Part shown: one piece after another, positions 7,274-63,486 of the stretch | How positions within the stretch are numbered: position 1 is the first letter of the stretch | How the letters are laid out: every line of letters begins with the position of its first letter | Origin: Oscillospiraceae bacterium | GTDB lineage: Bacteria > Bacillota > Clostridia > Oscillospirales > JAAYOS01 | Length of the DNA stretch: 64,000 bases | Direction: 5' to 3' | Assembly: GCA_031264245.1 (NCBI GenBank) | Contig: JAISEG010000005.1 | Coordinates: forward strand, 1-64,000 | Notes under the pieces: generated by a model | What the model saw: the letters and a program-made list of their open reading frames with translations, nothing else | What the model was told of the DNA's origin: nothing | Database searches by the model: none | Translations under genes and position numbers: made by a program

Positions 7274-7384
7274 ATTGTTTCACCTCCGTATGAGATTTTT
7301 TGGCTGTACCAGCCGTGACGGTTTCCCGCCGCAGCGCCGCAGACAAACTGTTCCCCAGGTCTGCCGCCCCGCAAATATAAAACG

Positions 7385-7508
7385 CCTCCGCGTCATAGAC
7401 ACGTGAGGCGCTGTACAAAACAAATAAAAGTTTCTGCACACTCCTCGGCGGGACGGTTCGTTTAAACCGATTAAAACCCTTCGGTTTCCTGCTGTCTATG
7501 GAACGTTA
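7385..7508 (-). promoter_or_regulatory. L10 leader (autoregulatory mRNA structure) with attenuator hairpin
   Basis: The minus-strand leader between the internal promoter and rplJ contains CATAGACAGCAGG and CCGCCGAGG, conserved pieces of the Firmicute ribosomal L10 leader, followed by a hairpin CGCCTC...GAGGCG (about 7380-7411) and TTTTATATTT that looks like an attenuator. The known mechanism is L10(L12)4 binding to the kink-turn region to control rplJ-rplL expression. Boundaries are approximate. Confidence 0.8.
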
Positions 7509-7514
7509 AAATGA

Positions 7515-7543
7515 AGTATATATCATAAAAACGGAAAAGTCAA
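7515..7543 (-). promoter_or_regulatory. Internal promoter for rplJ-rplL
   Basis: TTGACT (7538-7543) and TATACT (7515-7520) on the minus strand with 17-bp spacing, immediately after the rplA stop codon. The start point would be near 7508, exactly at the beginning of the L10 leader. Confidence 0.75.
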
Positions 7544-10757: not shown

Positions 10758-11044
10758 TTTTATACTAATTCACATTAGTACTGTCCCCGCTTTGGCCGTG
10801 AGGCCGATTTAAAATCCTGCACATATAGCAGGTGGGTTTACTCTCCTCAACATTATTGCTTCCAACATCCGGTAAACGCCGCGGCGTTTGCCGGGAGGCC
10901 TGCAAACCGTATCGGAAGTCCGTAATCCCGTTTGAAACACTGTGGGTTTAAATAAGCACAAGCACGAACCAAGCAGGGTAAAACACAGCTTGATATAAGC
11001 TATATCAAACAGAACAGAGAGCGGAACTGGACCGCTCCGTCACC
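10715..11044 (-). ncRNA. Candidate structured non-coding RNA, possibly 6S RNA
   Basis: A 330-nt minus-strand unit bounded by a strong promoter (11051-11079) and the terminator at 10712-10757, with no plausible ORF. It contains successive perfect hairpins: GAGCGG/CCGCTC, TTGATATA/TATATCAA, AAACGCC/GGCGTTT extended by CCGG/CCGG, CCTGC/GCAGG, GGCC/GGCC and TACTAAT/ATTAGTA. An outer pairing CTTCC/GGAAG encloses the GC-rich central hairpin, which could fit the long-rod fold of 6S RNA. Position beside ruvX/DUF1292 is compatible with that, but I cannot verify the family. tmRNA, SRP RNA and RNase P signature sequences are absent. Confidence 0.5.
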
Positions 11045-15001: not shown

Positions 15002-15985
15002 TTAACCCAGTTTTCTTATATTGAGCCCGCCGGAGACGGTGTCGATGTTAAAATCCGCGCTTCCGTTCCCATATATTTTCCTGCCGCCGCTTTCGGTGGT
15101 CGGAAAATCGTTGGACAGGCTGCCCGATACCTTGTCATAGCTCAGTGTAAAGCCGTCGTTGTCCGGTATTGCTATGGTGACCGAGCCTGAGACGGTGCTT
15201 GCGGAAATATATCCGGGGCACACAGACGAGGATATCTCGACAGAACCGGAGGTCGTGTCGCACCTTGCCTCGTTTACGCTTCCCTCCAGCTTTACCGCTC
15301 CCGACACACTGCTGTAATTCAGCTTTTTCATGGTTCCATAGAAAGCCGCGCTGCCCGACACACTGTCGCTTTTTAAATTCCCGATTTCTATGCCCTCGGC
15401 CGTTATTTCCCCTGACACCGTGTCAAATCTGGCCTCCTCGGAAATTATATTGTATACAGTTATCCCGCCCGAAACACCGTCTATATTTATTCTGCCCAGG
15501 GTGACGCCGGAAACGGAGGCGGACGCGCTCACAACGCTCACATCCAGCGCGCTTAGGTAGATGTTTGCGGGTATCCACATGGTCAGATCGGTTGAATTTT
15601 TATTGCCGAAGCTGATAAAGCCATATTTTCTTTGACCGTCCCCGTCACGCACTCTTAGCTTGCCCGCTTCAACCTTGTAAACCATGCGGTCCTTGTCCTC
15701 AATGCTCCGGTTCGAGGTCTGCGTAAATTTGATCTCACTTCCGTCATATGCGGATATCCCGACCTTTCCCGCTGTCCAGTCTATCTCGATATTGCTGATA
15801 TCCGCCGCGTTTACGCTTTCGCTTCCCGTCGTACTGACAGTGCCCTCAAAGCCGGGATTGCCGATGCTTATAAACGGAAGGTCGAAATAAGAAAAGCCTC
15901 CGTTCACCCCCATGAAAACAATTCCCGCCAATACCACTATAACTATAGACCAGCACACGATCCTGATTATTGCCGCTGTTCTCAT
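15002..15985 (-). CDS. Membrane-anchored DUF4097-type beta-helix protein
   Basis: Product of 327 residues. An N-terminal membrane helix (about 6-28) is followed by an extracytoplasmic domain made of repeated short strands with Ser-Gly turns (SVSGGITVYN, TVSGEITAEG, SVSGSAAFYG, SVSGAVKLEG, TTSGSVEISS, TVSGSVTIAI), the pattern of the DUF4097 putative adhesin fold. Start ATG at 15985 (MRTAAIIRIV); the upstream in-frame extension would be encoded by repeat D1. Together with the HAAS-domain gene and PadR it forms a typical envelope-stress operon. Confidence 0.85.
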   Translation of the reverse strand: MRTAAIIRIVCWSIVIVVLAGIVFMGVNGGFSYFDLPFISIGNPGFEGTVSTTGSESVNAADISNIEIDWTAGKVGISAYDGSEIKFTQTSNRSIEDKDRMVYKVEAGKLRVRDGDGQRKYGFISFGNKNSTDLTMWIPANIYLSALDVSVVSASASVSGVTLGRINIDGVSGGITVYNIISEEARFDTVSGEITAEGIEIGNLKSDSVSGSAAFYGTMKKLNYSSVSGAVKLEGSVNEARCDTTSGSVEISSSVCPGYISASTVSGSVTIAIPDNDGFTLSYDKVSGSLSNDFPTTESGGRKIYGNGSADFNIDTVSGGLNIRKLG

Positions 15986-15988
15986 ATT

Positions 15989-16070
15989 AAACCGCCATTT
16001 CTCAGGCGACCGGGTAGTTACTAATTGCTCCCCGCCCATCATCCGTCGCCTGAGGAATGATAAGCGGTTT
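15989..16070 (-). repeat. Family D hairpin, copy 1 (before DUF4097 start codon)
   Basis: AAACCGCCATTTCTCAGG at the left pairs with CCTGAGGAATGATAAGCGG at the right across the whole element (about 21 bp with a 4-nt bulge TTAT). The core AACCGC/GCGGTT ends 4 nt before the ATG at 15985. No Shine-Dalgarno sequence other than the stem itself is present. Copies at 25379, 31981 and 63364. Confidence 0.85.
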
Positions 16071-16096
16071 ATTTTTTTAAGTTTTTCGCCCTAAAC

Positions 16097-23594: not shown

Positions 23595-23699
23595 TATATC
23601 AATTTGACATAACATAGACTATATAAATTACTAAAATAACCGCATATATTCAACGTTTCTTTCAGCAATTTAAAGTCTATGATAATGCAAATTGCTATA
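23595..23699. mobile_element. MITE family B, copy 1 (105 bp)
   Basis: Inverted relative to the copies at 37431 and 56098. About 26-bp terminal inverted repeats starting TATAGCAATTTG, and an internal ATATATGCGGTTATTTTAG. It abuts the stop codon of the UPF0210 gene exactly (stop at 23700-23702) without altering the protein C-terminus. Ends in TA, suggesting TA target duplication. Confidence 0.85.
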
Positions 23700-25108: not shown

Positions 25109-25378
25109 CTATATCCTGTGCATGGAGGTGAAGATGTCCTCATGCATAACATGTACCTTCACACCCATTTCTTTTCCGTTTTCGCTGAGCAGCTCGGCTA
25201 ACCTTGAGAAAGGGAGCTTCGACCCGGATATGTCGACAAGCATCACCATCGCAAACAGATCCTGCAATATGCTTTGGGAGATATCCATGATATTTACGTT
25301 GTTTTCCGAAAGCTGCCTTGTTATTGAGGATATGATACCCACTGTGTCCCGTCCGACGACTGTCACCACTGCGCGCAT
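25109..25378 (-). CDS. ACT domain protein (UPF0237)
   Basis: Single ACT-type domain protein of 89 residues: [40 protein letters not shown]. Likely binds a small ligand, as GcvR-like proteins do, and partners the UPF0210 protein encoded 50 bp downstream. Start ATG at 25378; an in-frame ATG four codons earlier lies inside hairpin D2. No Shine-Dalgarno sequence other than the D2 stem. Confidence 0.92.
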
Positions 25379-25465
25379 AAAAACCGCCATTTCTCAGGCG
25401 ACGGTGTGGATATTGGATTGCCCGCACTTATCACCCGTCGCCTGGGAAATGATAAGCGGTTTTTT
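25379..25465 (-). repeat. Family D hairpin, copy 2 (before ACT protein start codon)
   Basis: AAAAACCGCCATTTCTCAGG pairs with CCTGGGAAATGATAAGCGG and TTTTT. The core GCGGTT ends three bases before the ATG at 25378. The loop differs from D3 and D4 but keeps GATAAGTGCG-like sequence on the minus strand. Confidence 0.85.
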
Positions 25466-25492
25466 AATTATATAAGCATGTATTTAGTATAA

Positions 25493-25619: not shown

Positions 25620-25659
25620 TAGACTTCTCCGCAAAACCGAAGGTTTTGCAAAAAGTCTA
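25620..25659. repeat. Family A palindrome, copy 2
   Basis: TAGACTTCTCCGCAAAACC and GGTTTTGCAAAAAGTCTA pair around GAA. It lies in the 448-bp gap before the amidase fusion gene; the rest of that gap holds repeat D2, a promoter and F2. Confidence 0.75.
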
Positions 25660-31407: not shown

Positions 31408-31980
31408 TTATCCTTTTGCTTTAATGATATCGTCCCCCACCATGTATTTTCTAAGCGGCTTATATATCAGGGCGGCAAGAACGGTGATTAGCGCCATATC
31501 GGGCAGCATGTACGCCCCGTTGTAAAGCATCGAGTAGAACCACGGGCTTGTCATCGTCATTCCGAAAAACTCAGGCGGCATCCATTTTCCCCAGACCACC
31601 GCGCCAACAATCAGATGGACGATAAAGCGCCCCGCGCTTCCCGCGATACAGCCGGCGAATATGCTCCAGCTTTTCCCCTTAAACAGACCCGCGCAGCCTC
31701 CCATAACGGCGTACGCCAGCATGTAGTCGGCTATTATTGTCGTCCAGTCGATCGCAATGCCGTTTCCAAAGACGTATTGCATAATTCCATAAATGAACCC
31801 CGTTCCAAGCCCCCACCCAAACCCGTGACGAACCGCGAAGAAAATCATGGGAAGCATGGCAATGTCGACAGAACCGCCGTTGTGAAACTCGAAGAGCCTT
31901 ATGTAGCTCAGTACCTGAGACAGCGCCAGCATTATTGCCGCCTCACAGATCGTGCGGATATAGCTGCTTTTCTTTGTCAT
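31408..31980 (-). CDS. thiT: Energy-coupled thiamine transporter ThiT (ECF S component)
   Basis: Substrate-binding S component of 190 residues with about six transmembrane helices. GGSVDIAMLPMIFFAVRHG and the region GSAGRFIVHLIVGAVVWGKW match the ThiT thiamine-binding signature. It would work with the shared EcfAA'T module, which is not in this window. A TPP riboswitch and terminator lie upstream and the D3 hairpin directly precedes the ATG at 31980; the longer frame starting at 32031 is only translated repeat. Confidence 0.93.
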   Translation of the reverse strand: MTKKSSYIRTICEAAIMLALSQVLSYIRLFEFHNGGSVDIAMLPMIFFAVRHGFGWGLGTGFIYGIMQYVFGNGIAIDWTTIIADYMLAYAVMGGCAGLFKGKSWSIFAGCIAGSAGRFIVHLIVGAVVWGKWMPPEFFGMTMTSPWFYSMLYNGAYMLPDMALITVLAALIYKPLRKYMVGDDIIKAKG

Positions 31981-32069
31981 AATAAACCGCCATCTTTCAG
32001 GCGACACAAAATAGTTATGAATTATGCGCACTTGTCATCCGTCGCCTGAGAGATGATAAGCGGTTTATT
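31981..32069 (-). repeat. Family D hairpin, copy 3 (before thiT start codon)
   Basis: AATAAACCGCCATCTTTCAG pairs with CTGAGAGATGATAAGCGG and TTTATT. The core GCGGTT ends four bases before the ATG. The loop is almost identical to that of D4 (TAGTTATGAATTATGCGCAC versus TAGTTGTGAATTATGCGCAC). Confidence 0.85.
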
Positions 32070-32081
32070 TATTTAATCCTG

Positions 32082-32107
32082 TTTAGCGTGAATTTATTCA
32101 CGCTAAA
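32082..32107. repeat. Palindrome E, copy 1
   Basis: TTTAGCGTGAA and TTCACGCTAAA around TTTA. It starts 16 bp from the D3 core, the same distance as its twin near D4 (63461-63486). Confidence 0.8.
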
Positions 32108-32143
32108 AACTCCTTCTTCTCGCCGGACACGGCAAGCAGAAGG
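32105..32143 (-). terminator. Riboswitch terminator upstream of thiT
   Basis: On the minus strand CCTTCTGCTTGCCG pairs with CGGCGAGAAGAAGG, followed by AGTTTTT. It lies about 50 nt after the TPP aptamer, so it is the natural expression platform. Confidence 0.75.
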
Positions 32144-32191
32144 AAAAATCATGTCACAAAGCAAGTGGCATTTATTATAGCAATTGCTACT

Positions 32192-32280
32192 TTTCCCTAC
32201 GCCGGCATTATCCGGATCAGGTTTGAGGGTCGAGACCGCGTCAGGTCTCCTCTCAGCCAGCTTGCGCCAGCACCCCTATA
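32192..32280 (-). promoter_or_regulatory. TPP riboswitch (THI element)
   Basis: The minus strand carries GGGGTGCTGGCGCAAGCTGG, GCTGAGAGG, ACCCTCAAACCTGATCCGG and ATGCCGGCGTAGGGA, the conserved aptamer blocks in order. It should switch thiT off by termination when thiamine pyrophosphate is bound. Confidence 0.96.
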
Positions 32281-32303
32281 TATGTTAAAGCCTTATTCGA
32301 ATT

Positions 32304-33770: not shown

Positions 33771-33815
33771 TAGTAGACTTCCTGCAAACCCCAAGGTTTT
33801 GCAAGAAGTCTACTA
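33771..33815. repeat. Family A palindrome, copy 3
   Basis: TAGTAGACTTCCTGCAAACC and GGTTTTGCAAGAAGTCTACTA pair around CCAA. It lies between ileS and lspA on the minus strand. Without a following T run on that strand, it is a repeat and not a clear terminator. Confidence 0.75.
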
Positions 33816-37405: not shown

Positions 37406-37430
37406 AATCGCCTCCATAAAATATATACAA

Positions 37431-37535
37431 TATAACAAATTACATTATCATAGACTTTAAATTGCTGAAAGGAACGTTGAATATATGCGGTTATTTTAGC
37501 AACTTATTTAGTCCATGTTATGTCAAATTGCTATT
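37431..37535. mobile_element. MITE family B, copy 2 (105 bp)
   Basis: TATAACAAATTACATTATCA to CATGTTATGTCAAATTGCTA: same orientation as the copy at 56098, with a few substitutions in the arms. It lies 26 bp upstream of the divIVA start, inside its probable promoter region. Confidence 0.82.
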
Positions 37536-37575
37536 TTGCCGTACCGCCAAATTTACTGCTTCCCCAATATTCCCA

Positions 37576-56064: not shown

Positions 56065-56097
56065 TATTTTTTACCTCCAAGCTTAATATAATTATTG

Positions 56098-56202
56098 TAT
56101 AGCAATTTGCATTATCATAGACTTTAAATTGCTGAAAGAAACGTTGAATATATGCGGTTATTTTAGCAATTTATATAGTCTATGTTATGTCAAATTGCTA
56201 TA
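56098..56202. mobile_element. MITE family B, copy 3 (105 bp), between grpE and dnaK
   Basis: TATAGCAATTTGCATTATCA to TGTTATGTCAAATTGCTATA. Its ends are four bases from the grpE stop and 33 bp from the dnaK start. The transcript would contain a stem of more than 40 nt per arm inside the heat-shock operon. Same core ATATATGCGGTTATTTTAG as B1 and B2. Confidence 0.85.
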
Positions 56203-56206
56203 TTAG

Positions 56207-59990: not shown

Positions 59991-60029
59991 TAGACTTCTG
60001 ACAAAACCGATGGTTTTGTCAGAAGTCTA
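59991..60029. repeat. Family A palindrome, copy 4 (perfect)
   Basis: TAGACTTCTGACAAAACC and GGTTTTGTCAGAAGTCTA pair without mismatch around GAT. It sits between the T-box terminator and the symporter start (60052). Confidence 0.85.
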
Positions 60030-61629: not shown

Positions 61630-63360
61630 TCAGCCCTCTCGCTGTTCCTTCTCTATCCGCTTTACAAGTCCGGTCATCGTCTCCTTGCGCCTTGCCGCCT
61701 CCTCCATATCCTTGCCCTTCGCAAATATATAGAACTTGATCTTCGGCTCTGTTCCGGACGGGCGAACCATAAGCTTTCTGTCCCCGTCAAACTCAAAGCT
61801 CAACACGTTGGAGCCCTTCAGCCTGAGCTTTCTCGTCACTCCTCCGTCGCTTATAACCTCCCCCGTCTCGAAATCCGTCATTGACCTGATTTTGAAGCCG
61901 CCGGGAAATTTGAAGCCGCCGTTTCTAAACGACTCCATCAGGTCATCCATCCTCTTTGAGCCGTTTATGCCCGGCATCATAACGCTGATCGTCTCGTCGG
62001 TATACGCTCCGTATTTCTCATACATCTCATTCATCGCGTCACGCAGGTTTTTCCCCTTTTCGGCGTAGCTTGCCGCCATTTCGCATATCAGCATCGACGC
62101 CGTAACCGCGTCCTTGTCCCGGCAATAATCCCCCACAAGATACCCGAAGGACTCCTCGTAGGAGAAGATATAATGCCTGCCCTCAGGCTCAAGCTCCCCG
62201 ATCCTCTCCGCGATGAACTTAAAGCCGGTGAAGGTTTCCTCCACCTCAAGCCCGTAATTTTCGCATATCGCGTCTATCATGTCGGAGGAAACAATGGTGC
62301 GTATGGCGTAGGACTTTTCCGGGATAGCGCCCATGCGCTTCCTTGCCGACGCGATATATTCAAGCAGCAGCGCCCCGGTCTGGTTGCCGCTGAGCAGCGT
62401 ATATTCGCCGTCCCTTTCACGGAACATCAGCCCCACCCTGTCCGAGTCCGGGTCTGTCCCTATAATGATATCCCCGCCGTGCCTTTTCGCGTATTCCAGC
62501 GCGAGAGTGTAGCCCACAGCGTACTCGGGATTTGGATTTGCCACCGTCGGAAAGTTTCCGTCCGGTATCATCTGTTCCGCCACCGGGATTATATTCTTAA
62601 CCCCGATCCGCCTGAGTATCTCAGGCACAAGCCTGTAGCCCGCTCCGTGAAACGGAGTGTAAACCACCTTAAACTCATCAGCTATCCTCCCCACAGTCCC
62701 CCTGTCGATTGACTGCCCGAGCGCGCACGCCAAAAATTCCTCGTCGGTCTCTCCCCCCAGCATGGTGATGAGCCCGCCGCTCACAGCGCGGTCAAAGCCG
62801 GTGAGCCTTGCCCCGGTGAATATATCGGTGTCCCTTATCTCCGCTTCAACAATCCGCGCATGCTCCGGCGGCAGCTGCGCCCCGTCCTCCCAGTAGGCCT
62901 TATATCCGTTGTATTCCTTCGGATTGTGCGACGCCGTAACATTGATTCCGGCAATGCACCCGTACCTTTTTATGGCAAAGCTAAGCTCGGGGGTGGGGCG
63001 CAGCCCGTCAAACAAAAATACCTTTATCCCGTTTGCCGCCAGCACGCAGGCAGCTTCACGCGCGAAGCGCTCGGAGTTTATCCGGCAGTCATACGCTATC
63101 GCCGCCCCGCGCTCCTCCCCGCCGTTCGCTTTTATAAGCTTCGCGAGGGCCTGGGTGGTCTGACGGATGACATAGATGTTCATCCGGTTAAGCCCCATCG
63201 CCATTACCCCTCTGAGTCCCGCGGTGCCGAACCCCAGCGGCGCGTAAAACCTGCTCTCCAGCTCCTTTTCGTTTCCCTCGAGCTGCAAAAGCTCGTTTCT
63301 TTCTTCCTCTGTCAATACGGGCGTTTCCAGCCACCTCCGGTACTCGTCATTGTAGCTCAT
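61630..63360 (-). CDS. Phosphoglucomutase/phosphomannomutase (PgcA-like)
   Basis: Alpha-D-phosphohexomutase of 576 residues interconverting hexose 1- and 6-phosphates for polysaccharide and cell-wall precursors. FGTAGLRGVMAMGLNRMN, active serine in GINVTASHNPKEYNGYK, metal loop GTDPDSDRVG, sugar-binding SYEESFGY and phosphate-binding RPSGTEPKIKFY are present. The length matches the long PgcA/Pgm type. Start ATG at 63360; a 4-codon longer frame begins inside hairpin D4. Confidence 0.95.
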   Translation of the reverse strand: MSYNDEYRRWLETPVLTEEERNELLQLEGNEKELESRFYAPLGFGTAGLRGVMAMGLNRMNIYVIRQTTQALAKLIKANGGEERGAAIAYDCRINSERFAREAACVLAANGIKVFLFDGLRPTPELSFAIKRYGCIAGINVTASHNPKEYNGYKAYWEDGAQLPPEHARIVEAEIRDTDIFTGARLTGFDRAVSGGLITMLGGETDEEFLACALGQSIDRGTVGRIADEFKVVYTPFHGAGYRLVPEILRRIGVKNIIPVAEQMIPDGNFPTVANPNPEYAVGYTLALEYAKRHGGDIIIGTDPDSDRVGLMFRERDGEYTLLSGNQTGALLLEYIASARKRMGAIPEKSYAIRTIVSSDMIDAICENYGLEVEETFTGFKFIAERIGELEPEGRHYIFSYEESFGYLVGDYCRDKDAVTASMLICEMAASYAEKGKNLRDAMNEMYEKYGAYTDETISVMMPGINGSKRMDDLMESFRNGGFKFPGGFKIRSMTDFETGEVISDGGVTRKLRLKGSNVLSFEFDGDRKLMVRPSGTEPKIKFYIFAKGKDMEEAARRKETMTGLVKRIEKEQREG

Positions 63361-63363
63361 ATC

Positions 63364-63444
63364 AACCGCCATTTCTCAGGCGACACAAAATAGTTGTGAA
63401 TTATGCGCACTCGTCATCCATCGCCTGAGAGATGATAAGCGGTT
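63364..63444 (-). repeat. Family D hairpin, copy 4 (before phosphohexomutase start codon)
   Basis: AACCGCCATTTCTCAGGCGA pairs with TCGCCTGAGAGATGATAAGC and GGTT. The core GCGGTT ends three bases before the ATG at 63360. Loop nearly identical to D3. Confidence 0.85.
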
Positions 63445-63460
63445 TATTTTTTTAATATTT

Positions 63461-63486
63461 GATAGCGTGAATTTATTCACGCTATC
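63461..63486. repeat. Palindrome E, copy 2
   Basis: GATAGCGTGAA and TTCACGCTATC around TTTA, perfect 26-bp palindrome, 16 bp from the D4 core. Same as 32082-32107. Confidence 0.8.

Follow-up and report, generated by a model that had tools for sequence, protein, structure and literature searches.

A pseudoknot element repeated ahead of clostridial start codons: cis-acting RNAs of an apparently undescribed family, with a likely role in translational control

Copies in the window and in its genome

The window analysed here is the whole of a 64,000-nucleotide stretch (positions 1 to 64,000 of contig JAISEG010000005.1, assembly GCA_031264245.1) from an Oscillospiraceae bacterium. Four copies of a hairpin-forming repeat lie on its minus strand, each in the mRNA sense and at the start codon of a gene; the E-values listed are those of three covariance models, R1, R2 and R3, which are described further on.

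15983..16081, minus strand: copy 1, ahead of a gene assigned to DUF4097 by Pfam; start codon 15983-15985; E 4.3e-20 (R1), 4.6e-21 (R2), 1.2e-8 (R3)
25376..25473, minus strand: copy 2, ahead of a gene with an ACT domain by Pfam; start codon 25376-25378; E 1.4e-20 (R1), 6.0e-5 (R3)
31978..32077, minus strand: copy 3, ahead of thiT; start codon 31978-31980; E 2.9e-24 (R1), 1.1e-3 (R3)
63358..63456, minus strand: copy 4, ahead of a phosphohexomutase gene; start codon 63358-63360; E 8.2e-22 (R1), 4.3e-9 (R3)

The copies lie where the original prediction had placed them, and they are no chance repeat. The near-perfect stem with a TTAT bulge that it had described was recovered by RNAalifold from the copies of this genome as 24 pairs including the bulge, the GCGGTT at the end of the repeat is separated from the ATG by 3-4 nt in all four window copies, and the four strands have predicted folding energies between -31 and -42 kcal/mol, with z-scores of -3.9 to -5.9 relative to shuffled sequences. 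The claim that no ordinary Shine-Dalgarno sequence is present stands in so far as there is no standard GGAGG, but a GGCGG, which differs from GGAGG by a single mismatch, is found 5-6 nt 5′ of the AUG. Ordinary GGAGG-type sites occur at many other genes of the window.

Other elements were also observed in this DNA. Rfam identifies a ribosomal protein L10 leader (7368-7519) and a 6S RNA (10780-10982), both on the minus strand. Another dispersed intergenic repeat of ~105-121 nt, with copies that are 88-98% alike and some of them inverted, occurs at 23595-23699, 37417-37537 and 56084-56204, and a short hairpin repeat, GCAAAACCGAAGGTTTTGCAAAAAGTCTA, at 25631-25659, 33784-33812 and 60001-60029. Elsewhere in the genome, a nested and tandem palindrome cluster (TATACCA..GGTATA, GTGGACATTATAC) was seen at L039/L040 (C4:208630-208746).

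When the window's own genome, a 1.2 Mb assembly that is 47% complete, was searched with one copy, 12 places were found, and R1, the covariance model of these 12 copies, added a diverged 13th ahead of alaS (locus L034). In the mRNA sense each of the 13 ends at a gene's ATG, and 5-6 nt before it stands GGCGG or, in its stead in other copies, GGUGG or AGAGG. A minimal 14th copy (C3:31638) precedes a short gene that resembles the gene downstream of L075. With the R1 search of this genome opened to E 10, the remainder consisted of opposite-strand echoes of the palindrome and of two matches at E >2, which are noise. Matches far from start codons or in random orientation, the outcome that would have told against the original prediction, were absent from this genome; the model matches lie before start codons, are co-oriented with the gene and carry compensatory changes, which supports the new cis-regulatory RNA that the prediction had put forward.

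The wider family and its conserved structure

A search of 58 relatives with R1 gave no match. A second covariance model, R2, to which the alaS copy had been added, had two matches, one ahead of deoD and one ahead of fusA, in another family within the order, and further copies were then found in that family, again 5′ of start codons; only the model that included the alaS copy reached another family. The core common to these outside copies is CCGGCGA ... UCGCCGGAGAAAYGG. A stem-only pattern, which excludes the start codon of the gene, was scanned through 84,980 genomes and yielded 51 matches, and all 31 clostridial ones were found in the sense orientation a few nucleotides 5′ of a start codon. 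The remaining ~20, mostly from high-G+C genomes of other phyla and mostly with no start codon at the usual distance, were set aside as chance. A third covariance model, R3, was built solely from outside sequences and contained no copy from the window's genome; it recovers those copies nevertheless, on the right strand and in the right register, at E 5e-10 to 1e-3, and since it had never seen them the window repeats belong to a wider family.

Within the order, 91 of 394 genomes have a match at E 0.01, and single genomes hold 31 (G367, ~29 of them sense), 19 (G234) and 12 (G118). Named clostridial hosts are Sporobacter termitidis and Papillibacter cinnamivorans, both Oscillospiraceae, and Acetanaerobacterium elongatum. 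In the class at large there are few strong matches, and those at E near 1e-3 were taken as mostly noise, except in G406, G565 and perhaps a few others. A DNA pattern made from the sequences of the window's genome had no match in genome and viral collections. No Rfam 15 family was matched at or above its gathering threshold, and a relaxed E-value brought either nothing or unrelated and microRNA-family matches, the latter arising by chance from the near-perfect palindrome. We found no description of the element in the open-access literature, and it is possible that one exists elsewhere.

Judged by the covariation of its pairs, the conserved structure is an H-type pseudoknot of two helices, P1 and P2, followed by an AGAAAYGG tail. 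P1 is a hairpin whose stem sequence varies almost freely yet stays paired, and its loop, CCGGCG, pairs as P2 with the CGCCGG of a near-invariant 3′ part, UCGCCGG-AGAAAYGG-N8-9-AUG. The covariation controls ignore relatedness, although many genera are represented and the excess over the controls is large. Across 34 sequences that exclude the window's genome, 78.5% of P1 cells are paired and 73 are compensatory, as against 23.4 ± 5.0 after shuffling; none of 500 shuffles reached the observed 73, and slid versions of the helix gave ≤27. For P2, 98.7% of cells are paired in 102 sequences, with 23 compensatory cells against 2.1 ± 1.3 when shuffled (0 of 500 shuffles; slides ≤3) and with 11 against 0.9 when the sequences of the window's genome are left out. 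Compensatory changes fall at five of the six P2 pairs, and the sixth pair also changes in L235, L243 and L249. Among the variants are CAGGCG/CGCCUG, which is that of the window's genome, CCGACG/CGUCGG, CCGGCA/UGCCGG, CCGGUG/CACCGG and CCAGCG/CGUUGG.

The tail, AGAAA(Y/A)GG, is near-invariant, its variable position being U in 52, C in 35, A in 14 and G in one of the 102 sequences. It is separated from the start codon by 8-9 nt in 72 of 84 sequences, the CGCCGG of P2 ends ~16-17 nt 5′ of the AUG, and the whole RNA is 70-100 nt long; minimal copies with no P1 also occur (L140, L221). A CsrA-type ANGGA site was excluded because GG is often followed by a base other than A, which in the clear copies of the window's genome is C or U.

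In the window copies, P2 pairs, the tail AGAAAYGG is followed 8-9 nt on by the start codon, and a P1 hairpin surrounds the loop. Throughout their genome CAGGCG pairs with CGCCTG, which compensates for CCGGCG/CGCCGG, and the tail of the clear copies is AGAAATGG, the exceptions being copy 3, which has AAAGATGG, and L009, in which the tail is altered. The P1 helix of these copies is 94% paired, as against ≤55% for slid versions, with covariation not above that of shuffles, and agreement among copies e01-e05 counts little because they are recent duplicates. The parts of copy 3, together with the corresponding upstream hairpin of copy 4, are as follows.

32086..32103, minus strand: copy 3, upstream hairpin hp1, GCGTGAATAAATTCACGC, the 5′ part of the long form; immediately 5′ of it is AAGGAG, a relic of the native Shine-Dalgarno sequence
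32053..32062, minus strand: copy 3, P1 5′ strand, CGCTTATCAT, from an alignment and pairing counts; partly pairs with the Shine-Dalgarno-like arm in the alternative fold
32041..32048, minus strand: copy 3, P2 5′ strand, CAGGCGAC, within the P1 loop; from P2 covariation
32029..32038, minus strand: copy 3, P1 3′ strand, ATGACAAGTG, from pairing counts in the genome's copies and the family P1
31998..32005, minus strand: copy 3, P2 3′ strand, GTCGCCTG, from P2 covariation
31990..31997, minus strand: copy 3, conserved tail, AAAGATGG (family consensus AGAAAYGG), from tail composition in 102 sequences
31987..31991, minus strand: copy 3, Shine-Dalgarno-like GGCGG, 6 nt 5′ of the AUG, paired within the long hairpin
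63465..63482, minus strand: copy 4, upstream hairpin hp1; immediately 5′ of it is AAAAGGA, a relic of the native Shine-Dalgarno sequence

An AUG within the stem had also been pointed out, in frame for copies 2 and 4, whereas in copies 1 and 3 it is out of frame or quickly stopped. The frames are as described, but this AUG is simply the tail AGAAAYGG in those cases where Y is U and, the base being variable, it is not a conserved feature of the element; as U, C, A and G all occur there across the family, functional initiation at this position was excluded. From the alignment, then, this AUG is incidental, and a coding function of the leader was likewise excluded, since the frames differ among copies.

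The long hairpin with the TTAT bulge is an alternative fold, strong in the window's genome. There the 5′ strand of P1 can pair either with the 3′ strand of P1 or, extending P2, with the tail, which gives two competing folds, and the long hairpin of these copies buries the Shine-Dalgarno-like GGCGG. By crude energies, the long hairpin comes out as the stabler of the two in all 13 copies of this genome, while elsewhere both folds are about equal. Shuffling the letters of the P1 5′ strand lowers its complementarity to the tail (0 of 150 shuffles reach the observed value); outside the window's genome the pairing is modest, at -3.5 versus -2.3 kcal/mol for letter shuffles, again by crude energies, and is reached in 6 of 150 partner shuffles, a control that discriminates little because the tail is invariant. 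With the tail-hiding fold modest outside the window's genome and the energies crude, an on/off switch may not hold family-wide, and we regard a two-fold switch as plausible at least in the window's genome. A thermosensor, in which melting exposes the start region, was among the functions originally put forward, and the hiding of a Shine-Dalgarno-like sequence in the long hairpin would suit it. However, stems of -31 to -42 kcal/mol, as found in this genome, are too stable to melt at growth temperatures, which leaves an RNA thermometer barely credible, and in the pseudoknot of the wider family the tail is free.

Genes preceded, conservation and spread

The element precedes ~100 unrelated gene families, with no confinement to one ribosomal-protein operon and with up to ~29 copies per genome. 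Most are housekeeping genes, among them rpmJ, topA, fusA, rpoB, gyrB, lon, purA and nusB. In all, 131 downstream proteins fell into 103 clusters, some named loci and G handles standing for one and the same genome. Products named through NCBIfam include ribosomal proteins L36 and S4, EF-G, RNA polymerase beta, topoisomerase I, gyrase B, NusB, ribosome recycling factor, ClpX and a KH-domain protein, and those beyond NCBIfam were named by eye from their N-termini. When 74 further matches were fetched, ~68 were found to end at a gene start, and a census of G367 placed nearly all sense matches before a start codon; a few matches, such as the upstream member of a tandem pair at L182, have no start codon at the usual place.

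The element has been kept, with an unrelated P1, at topA in three species of one genus, at tkt in three, at nusB, purA, murI and an L7Ae-like gene in two each, and at rpmJ in several families. That the same positions are kept between species despite a wholly diverged P1 indicates selection. The rpmJ copies sit inside an operon, between infA and rpmJ, and this placement speaks for control at the level of translation.

Five copies in the window's genome are long forms that carry the extra hairpin hp1, and four of them are near-identical even in their loops; no exact copy of hp1 was found beyond these five. At unrelated genes the long form, made up of hp1 and the pseudoknot, is found again with up to 97% identity, a Shine-Dalgarno 5-mer lies within 12 nt of the left edge in all five (background 3-5%), and in copy 4 the unit is flanked on both sides by TGATA, a possible target-site duplication. 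The relic Shine-Dalgarno sequences at the left edges and the TGATA flanks make it probable that the unit was inserted into the gap separating a pre-existing Shine-Dalgarno site from the AUG. Orthologues of alaS in related genera, and one of queG, have ordinary Shine-Dalgarno sites and no element, and no near-identical empty site was found.

The thiT leader stacks two control elements, a TPP riboswitch (32176-32287, minus strand) and the inserted unit. At 32100-32150 of the same strand it has a strong hairpin, UCCUUCUGC...GAAGAAGGA, then GUUUUU; this hairpin, downstream of the riboswitch, holds the native AAGGAG, and the inserted unit adjoins it on the 3′ side. In G367, at loci L122, L181, L182, L183 and L185, the element forms the 3′ end of a multi-hairpin repeat (GGTTTAC..GTAAACC, AATGCAG..CTGCATT, GGTGTCCGCAGACACC) that is present in several copies at start codons. 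The tandem pair at L182 (C6:21666-21910), of which the upstream copy has no start codon at the usual distance, gives the impression that a second copy was inserted downstream of the first, ahead of the AUG.

The near-identical long forms, their left edges, the TGATA flanks, the element-free orthologues and the repeat and tandem pair of G367 are points in favour of a mobile palindrome, similar to a MITE or REPIN, that targets the gap between Shine-Dalgarno site and start codon and would bring an initiation site of its own, with regulation secondary or absent. REPIN, BOX and MITE palindromes are not known to be fixed in register to start codons or to be kept at orthologues by compensatory change. 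The element is like them in its near-identical palindromic copies within a genome, but differs in being fixed in the start-codon register, which random insertion cannot yield in every copy, and in being kept at orthologues, as the positions at topA, tkt, nusB, purA and rpmJ attest. Furthermore, the covariation of P1 and P2 means that selection maintains the structure, no longer, split or transposase-bearing copy was found in the 1.2 Mb assembly, and there were no phage, plasmid or viral-contig matches. We therefore consider a mobile palindrome unlikely as the whole explanation. The original prediction had offered a new cis-regulatory RNA or a mobile palindrome, and each holds to a degree: the sequences indicate a conserved cis-acting RNA that has also spread inside some genomes.

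Proposed working and relation to known systems

Our preferred reading, and a likely one, is that the element represents a family of RNAs, apparently undescribed, that act in cis to control translation and probably set the protein output of the genes behind them. The RNA before the start codon would fold into P1 and P2, leaving the tail, 8-9 nt and the AUG in succession. The pseudoknot would be the on state, with the tail free and the 30S subunit able to load, while refolding into one long hairpin, which the sequence allows in the window's genome and, as a tendency, elsewhere, would bury the tail with its Shine-Dalgarno-like GG and block 30S loading, giving the off state. Because P1 is transcribed first, a new mRNA may begin in the on fold and then switch, so that folding order can set the state. 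Conservation confined to P2 and the tail would make a small metabolite a less likely partner than a protein, an RNA or the ribosome. Recent copies that separate an intact Shine-Dalgarno sequence from its AUG would, from their anatomy, become the new initiation region. A constitutive translation enhancer or standby structure, with neither switching nor partner, could also account for the predominance of housekeeping genes, the fixed distance to the AUG and a tail that is free in the pseudoknot. We think it rather unlikely, given that the invariant AGAAA is not required for pairing with the 16S 3′ end and that the copies of the window's genome fold so as to hide the tail.

The element would work like other pseudoknot regulators at start codons and is a member of no family tested. 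In the repZ leader of IncB/IncI plasmids, a loop GGCG pairs with CGCC just upstream of the start region, which a competing stem can hide; repZ is a plasmid replication gene controlled with an antisense RNA and a leader peptide. The pairing of a loop with a strand just ahead of the start region and the competing stem are shared with our element, whereas the latter is chromosomal and found at many genes. The alpha operon (S4) and rpsO (S15) carry ribosomal-protein pseudoknots at the initiation region, autogenous and limited to one operon each. The element resembles them in the position of its pseudoknot and its copies include rpmJ and rpsD, but it precedes ~100 gene families.

The riboswitches preQ1-I and SAM-V are small H-type pseudoknots next to the Shine-Dalgarno site (PMC11625349, PMC6061858), an arrangement that the element shares, along with what would be translational control, and that could suggest a small-molecule riboswitch. 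Such a riboswitch is nonetheless very improbable, for the element has no conserved unpaired binding core (P1 and the linkers vary freely, and P2 and the tail alone are fixed), its genes are unrelated and share no pathway, it occurs in tens of copies per genome, and it matches no Rfam family. The odc1, carA and pnuC motifs (PMC8632094) are structured RNAs, some of them pseudoknotted, that abut the ribosome-binding site and start codon, and each is tied to one gene type, odc1 being reported from alpha-proteobacteria. Our element is likewise a structured RNA at the ribosome-binding site, but it is not bound to a gene type, and it was matched by sequence to none of these motifs.

More speculatively, one trans-acting partner might read P2 and AGAAAYGG and so set the translation of a clostridial growth regulon of tens of genes per genome, to which the element would recruit genes by copying itself into the gap between Shine-Dalgarno site and AUG; we put this forward tentatively. 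Pseudoknot regulators at start codons have so far been known for one gene or pathway each, and here one family precedes ~100 gene families, with core genes for transcription, translation, replication and proteolysis among them, in a group of bacteria for which little is known of translational regulons. The cultured hosts Sporobacter termitidis, Papillibacter cinnamivorans and Acetanaerobacterium elongatum make the element directly testable. How a regulon can grow by the copying of a regulatory RNA would be seen in the copies that separate an intact Shine-Dalgarno sequence from the AUG.
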